NCBI GenBank assembly: GCA_002162955.1
Contig: MABD01000054.1
Coordinates: 33,043 to 86,985, forward strand
Length of the DNA stretch: 53,943 nt
Direction: 5' to 3'
Source: Gammaproteobacteria bacterium 45_16_T64
GTDB lineage: Bacteria; Pseudomonadota; Gammaproteobacteria; Pseudomonadales; Ketobacteraceae
Shown here: positions 10,102 to 12,232 of the stretch, piece after piece
Layout: every line of letters starts with the position of its first letter
Numbering within the stretch: position 1 is the stretch's first letter
Translations under genes and position numbers: made by a program
Notes under the pieces: generated by a model
What the model saw: only the letters and a program-made list of their open reading frames with translations
The model's database searches: none
What the model was told of the DNA's origin: nothing

Positions 10102-11112
10102 ATGAAGCGTATCCAGCCAGGATCCAGTCCGGGAGGCGCAAGTCGGACCGCAGCGGCATCCCCGCGGGGGGCGAGCCAGCAAACCGTCACGTTGGCTCAA
10201 CGTTTTAAGAGTTATCGTAACCACCACAAGGTTGTAGCATTAGAGAGTCTTCAGCGATTACTCGCGACCCCTATTCCCACTATTATGACAGTACTGGTGC
10301 TTGCGATCGCAATAGCGTTGCCAGCCGGGTTATATGTCATGTTAAAAAATGCTCAAATATTGAGTCGAGATTGGGATGGTAGTGCACAGATATCGTTGTA
10401 TTTGCAGCAAGACTTTCCAATGGATAAAGGTAGGGCGTTTGCGCGCAAGCTTGAGAAGCGTGTGGATGTTGCGCGTACGCAGTACATTTCAAAAGCTCAG
10501 GCGTTGGAAGAGTTCCAAGTGTTGTCTGGTTTTGGTGACTTGCTGAGTGAACTAGATGAAAACCCGTTGCCATCGGTTATTGTGGTTTATCCCAGTAACC
10601 GAGATGTCGCTCAAGCTGAAGATTTACGTCAGGCATTGGATAAGTTTCAGCAAGTTGATGCGGCCCAGCTAGATGCGGAGTGGGTTCAACGATTACATGC
10701 GATGTTAGATCTCGCAGAACGATTGGTGTTTGCGTTGGGTGTCGGTTTGGGGTTGGCAGTGTTACTGGTGGTTATTAATACCATCCGTTTGGCCATTGAA
10801 GCACGCCGGGATGAAATCGTTATCGTTAAAATGGTTGGGGCTACAGATGCTTTTGTACGACGGCCTTTCTTATATTGTGGATTATGGTATGGATTTGCCG
10901 GTGGGCTGATCGCGCTAATTATCATCGAGAGCATACTCTTTTGGGTTGATTCTCCCGTGGGCCAATTAGCGAATTTATACGGTAGCAGTTTTGACCTATC
11001 TGGATTAGGGTTCGTAAATACGTTGATGCTTTTTTCTGCCAGTGCTTTTATAGGTTGGCTCGGGGCTTGGTTGGCGGTGGGGCAACATTTACGTGCGATT
11101 GAACCGCGATAA
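10102..11112 (+). CDS. ftsX: Cell division membrane protein FtsX
   Basis: Membrane partner of FtsE. 336 residues. A cytoplasmic N-terminal tail of about 45 residues is rich in Gly/Ser/Ala/Arg and encoded by noticeably more GC-rich DNA than its surroundings. TM1 is near 55-80 (TIMTVLVLAIAIALPAGLYVML). The periplasmic domain spans about 85-200 (AQISLYLQQDFPMDKG, YISKAQALEEFQVLSGFGDLL, NPLPSVIVV). Three C-terminal TM segments follow (VFALGVGLGLAVLLVVINTI; WYGFAGGLIALIIIES; LMLFSASAFIGWLGAWLAVG). The basic loop ARRDEIVIVKMVGAT before TM3 is the FtsX/permease hallmark. It starts right after the ftsE stop. Confidence 0.97.
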   Translation: MKRIQPGSSPGGASRTAAASPRGASQQTVTLAQRFKSYRNHHKVVALESLQRLLATPIPTIMTVLVLAIAIALPAGLYVMLKNAQILSRDWDGSAQISLYLQQDFPMDKGRAFARKLEKRVDVARTQYISKAQALEEFQVLSGFGDLLSELDENPLPSVIVVYPSNRDVAQAEDLRQALDKFQQVDAAQLDAEWVQRLHAMLDLAERLVFALGVGLGLAVLLVVINTIRLAIEARRDEIVIVKMVGATDAFVRRPFLYCGLWYGFAGGLIALIIIESILFWVDSPVGQLANLYGSSFDLSGLGFVNTLMLFSASAFIGWLGAWLAVGQHLRAIEPR

Positions 11113-11149
11113 GCGCGTATTAGGTGTAATTTTGGGAATGACCGTTGCT

Positions 11150-11178
11150 TTGACAGCTTCGTCATAATATGTCATAAA
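11150..11178 (+). promoter_or_regulatory. Possible vegetative promoter for rpoH
   Basis: A perfect -35 hexamer TTGACA (11150-11155) is followed after 17 bases by CATAAA (11173-11178), a 4/6 match to the -10 consensus. It lies just beyond the ftsX stop and would give a leader of roughly 190 bases for rpoH. This is a prediction from hexamers only. Confidence 0.3.
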
Positions 11179-11221
11179 GGTTGTCGCTACCCCATATGTT
11201 GCGGCGTTGACCGTTACATAT

Positions 11222-11243
11222 CAATGACCTAGAGACGTCATTG
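11222..11243 (+). repeat. 7-bp perfect inverted repeat in the rpoH upstream region
   Basis: CAATGAC (11222-11228) and GTCATTG (11237-11243) flank 8 bases. It lies between the candidate promoter and the CIRCE element. It may be a protein-binding operator or an RNA hairpin; nothing in the sequence decides which. Confidence 0.35.
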
Positions 11244-11319
11244 GGGGCGGTGTAAAAGTGACTGAATACACACAACGGTTAAATGTTAAGAAGGGAATCA
11301 TTGGGAACCAATTGTTGGA

Positions 11320-11346
11320 TTAGCACTCCTACAACAAGAGTGCTAG
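11320..11346 (+). promoter_or_regulatory. CIRCE element (HrcA operator) upstream of rpoH
   Basis: TTAGCACTC (11320-11328), a 9-base spacer (11329-11337) and GAGTGCTAG (11338-11346) match the CIRCE consensus TTAGCACTC-N9-GAGTGCTAA at 17 of 18 arm positions and at the exact spacing. It ends 28 bases before the rpoH ATG. CIRCE is the operator of the heat-shock repressor HrcA. A weak promoter could be embedded in it (TTAGCA at 11320, 18-base spacer, TAGACT at 11344), in which case bound repressor would cover the promoter. This predicts HrcA control of the heat-shock sigma factor itself. Confidence 0.8.
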
Positions 11347-11374
11347 ACTCAGCTAGAGTTTCTTGGAGAACACT

Positions 11375-12232
11375 ATGAATACAGCGTTACAACCCGCTAT
11401 GATCGCCGCTCCTGGTGCGAATATTGAGGCCTATCTACAGACTGTAGGTGGGGTTGCTATTCTTACTCATGAGCAAGAGCGCGAACTGTCGGAACGTTAT
11501 TTTTATCAAGATGATGTAGATGCTGCTCGTCAGTTAGTACTTGCACACCTGCGCTTCGTTGTACACATCGCAAAAAGCTATTCGGGTTATGGCTTGTCAC
11601 AGTCAGACCTTATCCAAGAAGGTAATGTCGGCCTAATGAAGGCGGTTAAGCGCTTTGACCCACAGGTTGGTGTCCGCCTTGTGTCATTTGCGGTGCACTG
11701 GATAAAAGCAGAGATTCATGAGTTTGTGTTGCGTAACTGGCGCATTGTTAAGGTTGCGACAACAAAATCTCAGCGTAAGTTATTTTTTAATTTACGTAGC
11801 AAGAAAAAACGCCTCGGTTGGATGAATCAGGCCGAAATCAAAGCTATTGCGGAAGATTTGGGTGTGAGCGTCAACGATGTTCGTGAAATGGAAGGCCGGT
11901 TGTCTGCCCATGACGCAACTTTTGATGCCCCAGTTGATGCTGATGAAGAAAAGGTCAGTACTGCGCCAGTGCATTACTTGGAGTCAGCCACTGAAGACCC
12001 TGCTGTCATGTTAGAGAATGACGACTGGGCAGAAAACAGTAACAATAAACTTTATAGTGCGATGGCAAATCTTGATGAGCGTAGTCGCGATATATTGGAA
12101 AAACGTTGGTTTGCTGATGAAAAGTCAACATTGCATGAGCTGGCAGCAGAGTATAATGTGTCCGCTGAACGCATTCGTCAGTTAGAAAAGAATGCGATGA
12201 AAAAAATGAAGGTAGCGATGCTTGAGGCGTAG
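11375..12232 (+). CDS. rpoH: Heat-shock sigma factor RpoH (sigma-32)
   Basis: Directs RNA polymerase to heat-shock promoters. 285 residues from the ATG at 11375, which has a GGAG ribosome-binding site 6 bases upstream; an earlier in-frame TTG at 11363 overlaps that site and is rejected. Region 2 is clear ([65 protein letters not shown]), followed by the RpoH box QRKLFFNLR that separates it from other sigma-70 factors. Region 4 ends with the helix-turn-helix [28 protein letters not shown] consensus-like CIRCE operator lies in its leader and an intrinsic terminator follows. E. coli rpoH is mainly controlled by translation and protein turnover, so an HrcA operator here would add a transcriptional layer. 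Confidence 0.98.

Follow-up and report, generated by a model that had tools for sequence, protein, structure and literature searches.

A predicted HrcA operator overlaps a sigma-E-like promoter motif upstream of rpoH in Gammaproteobacteria

Results

A CIRCE element lies directly upstream of rpoH

The window, by which we mean the whole 53,943-nt stretch of DNA analysed, comes from a genome of 6.49 Mb in 58 contigs and carries rpoH (Table 1), whose product matches TIGR02392 at 401 bits (cut-off 323) and also matches NF005143; an alternative TTG start of the same reading frame is found at 11363. An ftsX-like gene precedes rpoH, and ftsX is likewise found directly before rpoH in E. coli EC1515, so that the promoters of the two species can be compared between regions that share a neighbour (10102-11374 in the window). 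Scanning the window with the CIRCE consensus TTAGCACTC-N9-GAGTGCTAA returned a site at 11320-11346 in which 17 of 18 arm positions agree with the consensus and the spacer is 9 nt. The site reads TTAGCACTC-CTACAACAA-GAGTGCTAG, its sole mismatch being the last base, and 28 nt (11347-11374) separate it from the rpoH ATG at 11375. The arms, the exact spacer and the distance to the start codon had all been described in the first-pass annotation, with which both the coordinates and the sequence agree. As is expected of CIRCE, the element stands ahead of a heat-shock gene, here over a predicted promoter. It is the only match in the window at up to 3 mismatches, where dinucleotide shuffles predict 0.02, and a plain binomial estimate puts the chance of a site with at most 1 mismatch in the 262-nt rpoH upstream region at ~2e-7; on these figures a chance match was rejected.

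Table 1. Features of the rpoH region, in window coordinates
Feature	Position	Strand	Details	Basis
ftsX-like gene preceding rpoH	10102..11112	+	336 aa	open reading frame; named by reading and E. coli gene order
Possible distal sigma-70-type promoter	11150..11178	+	TTGACA-N17-CATAAA	TTGAC and CATAATATGTCATAAA in 5/5 genus genomes
Predicted sigma-E -35	11304..11310	+	GGAACCA, 5/7 to GGAACTT	GGAAC in 5/5 genus genomes; class enrichment
CIRCE, predicted HrcA operator	11320..11346	+	arms 11320-11328 and 11338-11346; spacer 11329-11337	17/18, genus conservation, hrcA co-occurrence
Predicted sigma-E -10	11327..11331	+	TCCTA, 16 nt after the -35	TCnnA enrichment at rpoH sites
Probable ribosome-binding site	11365..11368	+	GGAG	read from sequence
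rpoH, heat-shock sigma factor sigma-32	11375..12232	+	285 aa	TIGR02392 above cut-off

The first-pass annotation had taken this palindrome for an HrcA operator, a reading that calls for hrcA in the genome and for the palindrome in close relatives. Both were found. HrcA is encoded at an hrcA-grpE-dnaK locus (PF01628, E 1.4e-60; TIGR00331, 317 bits, cut-off 197), and the element is present before rpoH in all five genomes of the genus. The genome also has groESL and a gene for RpoE (TIGR02939, 316 bits, cut-off 236). A genome-wide search for other CIRCE sites at up to 3 mismatches yielded three in all, before rpoH (1 mismatch), before groES (2) and at a weak third position (3), and none upstream of hrcA or dnaK. 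The groES element (L002 1501-1527) follows a sigma-70-like TATTAT whose last T also belongs to the operator, and a perfect sigma-32-like motif is found 79 nt further upstream. The third site (L003 1501-1527, G000:C35:312314-312340) adjoins no chaperone gene and is probably a chance match; the nearest forward reading frame, ~257 nt away (L003 1785-2825), reads like an AraC-type regulator.

The site before rpoH is widespread and follows hrcA

The RpoH nearest to that of the window belongs to Gammaproteobacteria bacterium 42_54_T18 (90% identity), followed by a Ketobacter RpoH (73%). Among 80 named rpoH loci, 12 have a CIRCE element with no or one mismatch, with Ketobacter, Haliea, Halioglobus, Parahaliea and Luminiphilus among the titles; the Gilvimarinus locus has one with 4 mismatches, and the Pseudomonas, Marinobacter, Halomonas, Acinetobacter and Endozoicomonas loci of this set have none at up to 5. 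In 57 relatives, CIRCE (at most 2 mismatches, anywhere in the genome) was found in 29 and hrcA in 28. We then turned to the class, which in GTDB takes in the former Betaproteobacteria, with a sample of 140 genomes, 103 of them with hrcA and 134 with RpoH. Across 131 genomes and 134 rpoH loci, scanned over 450 nt upstream at up to 3 mismatches, CIRCE precedes rpoH in 91 of the 99 genomes with hrcA versus 5 of the 32 without it (Fisher p 4e-16, a value that ignores kinship); six genomes without an RpoH match, together with G000, G034 and G048, stand outside this table. With the reversed pattern as a control, none of the 134 loci scored within 2 mismatches, and a single locus did when 4 were allowed. 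The exceptions are eight genomes with hrcA and no rpoH site (G142, G110, G173, G176, G076, G193, G147 and G065) and five with a site and no hrcA (G113, G127, G154, G160 and G068). When both samples are pooled, 118 of 187 genomes have both, 9 hrcA only, 7 the site only and 53 neither; G036 is counted here as hrcA-only with its rpoH at a contig end and the upstream region missing. In G081 and G126 (L167 and L168; L158, L248 and L258), which have two or three RpoH-like genes, CIRCE is found at only one of them.

Kinship was taken into account on a FastTree phylogeny of RpoH, from which G054 was left out. On this tree at least 33 changes are needed for hrcA and 37 for the site, counts that do not separate gain from loss. 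Nine independent pairs on supported branches differ in hrcA; on average the site follows in 6.7 of them and opposes in 0.0 (median p 0.016, range 0.008-0.125, for this one protein and FastTree). Remnants of the element persist in genomes without detected hrcA. A remnant TTGGCACTC-N9-GATGCTAA precedes rpoH in G115 (L181), two loci (L112 and L113) retain pieces of the left CIRCE arm at the sigma-E -10, and a further locus (L096), in a genome that is only 54% complete, retains the whole left arm. Because these remnants persist, loss of the operator rather than its gain is suggested.

Since hrcA is present, the site is conserved before rpoH and the two co-occur across the 187 genomes, the identification of the element as an HrcA operator is well supported by comparative sequence evidence. 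The first-pass annotation had left it undecided whether the arrangement had been described in this lineage. A lineage-specific oddity can be rejected, as the arrangement is common in the sampled class; CIRCE before rpoH had also been predicted in Geobacter sulfurreducens in 2004, as discussed below.

The operator overlaps a sigma-E-like promoter motif

In all five genomes of the genus an invariant GGAAC precedes CIRCE at a fixed place. In the window it belongs to the motif GGAACCA-N16-TCCTA (11304-11331), whose putative -10 straddles the end of the left CIRCE arm, taking 2 bases from the arm and 3 from the spacer. To see whether such a motif is general, we aligned 115 CIRCE sites before rpoH (61 perfect, 39 with 1, 8 with 2 and 7 with 3 mismatches), drawn from 170 loci (L085-L114 and L125-L264) with 20 further loci excluded. 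The columns 5′ of these sites read GGAACTT, and the start of the spacer favours T-A-A, its third base being A in 79%. The class form is therefore GGAACTT-N16-TCnnA, where the left CIRCE arm supplies TC as its final two bases; the window carries a weaker version of this form. The consensus of sigma-E promoters has this same form. A -35 call (at least 5/7 to GGAACTT at five allowed offsets) was obtained at 88 of the 115 rpoH sites, against 4 of 115 at five shifted offsets and 2 of 36 groES sites among the matches listed; TCnnA was present at 91 of 115 and, among the matches listed, at 6 of 36, respectively. The 41 control loci comprised these 36 groES sites, picked among the matches listed rather than at random, 4 hrcA sites and 1 unclassified; the four hrcA sites (1 with a -35, 2 with TCnnA) are too few for a comparison. 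Being enriched at rpoH sites and rare at groES sites, the sigma-E-like motif goes with rpoH and not with CIRCE as such.

The same motif was scored at rpoH loci with and without the operator. A score of at least 7 was reached at 68 of 115 loci with CIRCE (2.4 in shuffles) and at 20 of 55 loci without it (0.75 in shuffles), the shuffles here and in the sigma-32 scans preserving single-base composition only. Its presence at loci without CIRCE, and in E. coli and Pseudomonas, indicates that the predicted sigma-E motif outlives the operator. In E. coli EC1515, TGAACTT-N16-TCTGA is located before rpoH, 93 nt from the ATG; we take this to be promoter P3, which is sigma-E dependent. The window resembles P3 in having a GGAACTT-like-N16-TC motif before rpoH and after ftsX, and differs in having CIRCE and in its box, which stands 43 rather than 93 nt before the ATG. 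Like P3, the predicted promoter has a GGAACTT-like -35 (5/7), a spacing within 15-17 nt and a TCnnA -10, in a genome with rpoE. The best CIRCE match in this one E. coli region has 8 mismatches, in line with the earlier remark that E. coli rpoH lacks such a site, and E. coli among the control genomes gave no PF01628 match. Pseudomonas rpoH has an AlgU (sigma-E) promoter; in Pseudomonas loci GGAACTT-N16-TCAAT is found ~46-49 nt before the rpoH ATG, near the position of the window's box, but the Pseudomonas rpoH loci examined lack CIRCE.

Several observations weigh against a sigma-E reading. The window's -35 agrees at only 5/7 positions, its TCCTA departs from the E. coli optimum, and across the class the -35 is absent from 27 and TCnnA from 24 of the 115 rpoH sites, so some rpoH genes presumably use other promoters. 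It is conceivable, and in our judgement improbable, that HrcA acts at rpoH as a roadblock to or repressor of a sigma-70 promoter and that the sigma-E-like motif is weak or unused here. The modest -35 would fit this explanation, as would the TTGACA-N17-CATAAA block conserved upstream in the genus and the groES operators, which abut a sigma-70-like TATnAT, so that HrcA pairs with sigma-70 promoters elsewhere (by eye, groES sites are often preceded by TATnA, the next base being the first T of CIRCE). It would not account for the fixed spacing between the GGAAC box and CIRCE in genus and class, nor for the persistence of the box at rpoH loci without CIRCE. Furthermore, a sigma-70 consensus scan of 11050-11400, in which a -10 must end in T, gave no promoter, either over the site or elsewhere in that interval.

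It is very unlikely that the palindrome acts instead at the level of the rpoH mRNA, forming a hairpin that controls stability or translation. The arms of an RNA made from the distal promoter can pair as a 9-bp hairpin (z -2.0), but transcription from the predicted sigma-E promoter would begin within the site, leaving out the left arm, and once that arm is removed the leader folds no more stably than shuffles (z 0.70). Base pairing is also poorly kept among the 115 sites, where 30 of 72 changed arm pairs are broken and 4 are changed on both sides, and the presence of the site tracks hrcA. No Rfam family was found at E <=1 in 11100-11600. With neither such a match nor a fold better than shuffles, the leader up to the coding region does not qualify as an RNA thermometer, which would be expected to mask the ribosome-binding site or to belong to a known family. 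The thermometer of E. coli rpoH reaches into the coding region. The broken arm pairs, the leader fold and the Rfam result together lend little support to a hairpin or thermometer. Least credible of all is a chance match or a decayed relic that is functionless in this genome, for although the site has one mismatch and a few genomes without detected hrcA still carry a site, the chance expectation for the upstream region is as low as given above, hrcA is intact, and the arms are conserved around a variable spacer in all five genus genomes.

Sigma-32-like motifs at the heat-shock genes

In the window's own genome, sigma-32-like motifs score 13/13 at groES and 12/13 at hrcA, grpE and dnaK. The best score at rpoH is 9/13, which is at chance level (shuffle p 0.39), and a sigma-32 promoter was rejected there. 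At a threshold of at least 11/13, a motif is present at 22 of the 36 groES control loci among the matches listed and in 11 of the 115 rpoH regions, against 0.4 in shuffles for each; from the latter, RpoH may act on its own gene in some genomes. The hrcA motif (12/13) is found in 5/5 genus genomes and was not found at 10 hrcA loci outside the genus, which score 8-10/13. The score hinges on HrcA starting at residue 19 (the family match begins at residue 23); a scan ending at the upstream ATG gives at best 8/13 in the window's genome, and hence no sigma-32 motif.

Discussion

Taken together, these comparisons make it probable that a working HrcA operator covers part of a sigma-E promoter at rpoH, overlapping its -10 and expected start, where HrcA and sigma-E would compete in a GroE-dependent manner. 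In Bacillus the dependence of HrcA on GroE is established. We infer the same dependence here, as we do HrcA binding, the use of sigma-E and the competition between them. With GroE free, HrcA would be active on CIRCE and would exclude sigma-E polymerase from rpoH; bound there, it may also block transcripts arriving from the distal promoter. Under stress, unfolded proteins would occupy GroE, HrcA would come off the DNA at rpoH, and sigma-E polymerase would transcribe the gene. The output of rpoH would then be set both by cytoplasmic folding load, via HrcA, and by envelope stress, via sigma-E. RpoH would in turn act on groESL, dnaK and, in this genus, hrcA, restoring repression.

In the wiring thus predicted for the genus, rpoH is a target of both HrcA and sigma-E, groESL of both HrcA and RpoH, and dnaK and hrcA of RpoH, while HrcA itself responds to GroE. 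The first-pass annotation had proposed a cascade from HrcA to RpoH to the whole regulon. Its first step, an operator on rpoH, is well supported by the sequence comparisons, but a one-way scheme appears insufficient given the overlap with a predicted sigma-E promoter and the sigma-32-like promoter predicted at hrcA, which would close a loop.

A wider proposal, which we regard as evenly balanced, is that HrcA control of rpoH, by way of an operator that has bases in common with the sigma-E -10, is ancestral in the class, and that E. coli and Pseudomonas reached their state, a sigma-E promoter without HrcA, when hrcA was lost and the operator then decayed. At these common bases envelope stress and GroE load would be read by direct competition, with an RpoH-HrcA loop in the genus. 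The textbook account of sigma-32 control rests on E. coli, which is without HrcA. If the proposal holds, many lineages of the class would set rpoH transcription by a chaperonin-sensing repressor in competition with sigma-E polymerase, and rpoH control in E. coli would be a derived state. It predicts that rpoH expression will rise in an hrcA deletion and that both rpoE and the bases which operator and promoter have in common will be needed. Genomes with and without hrcA would offer a natural series for the rewiring of the heat-shock response after loss of a regulator. An arrangement shared by many related bacteria and absent from E. coli makes its function worth testing.

Parts of the arrangement have precedents. 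In the class I heat-shock genes of Bacillus, as cited in PMC3989490, HrcA and CIRCE control dnaK and groESL. The operator and the repressor family are the same here, whereas the window's target is the sigma-32 gene and the predicted overlapping promoter is of sigma-E rather than housekeeping type. Closer still, CIRCE upstream of rpoH is already in print for one delta-proteobacterium: in the excerpt consulted, a CIRCE element was predicted in 2004 at -51 from the rpoH start codon of Geobacter sulfurreducens, one of that paper's genomes, which also has hrcA and CIRCE before groESL (PMC545781). The excerpt mentions no sigma-E promoter at the rpoH site, and it places CIRCE at hrcA-grpE-dnaKJ as well (PMC545781), where the window's genome has none before hrcA at up to 3 mismatches. 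In the literature searched, no account was found of a CIRCE element that overlaps a sigma-E promoter at rpoH; two papers outside that search, Permina and Gelfand 2003 and one on Geobacter RpoH, may bear on its novelty. The terms HrcA, rpoH and CIRCE do not occur in PMC5343134.

The arrangement is also found beyond the class. In a phylum sample of 60 genomes, for which the coordinates of CIRCE and of rpoH-like genes were compared by hand, the element is located just before an rpoH-like gene in 5 of the 45 genomes from outside the class (G200, G208, G211, G214 and G230), all in one genus (g194, 5/8 of its genomes). With Geobacter sulfurreducens, these indicate that the predicted layout is not confined to the class. 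Elsewhere, at G237:C138:35390-35478, two CIRCE-like sites are found 35 nt apart in one genome.
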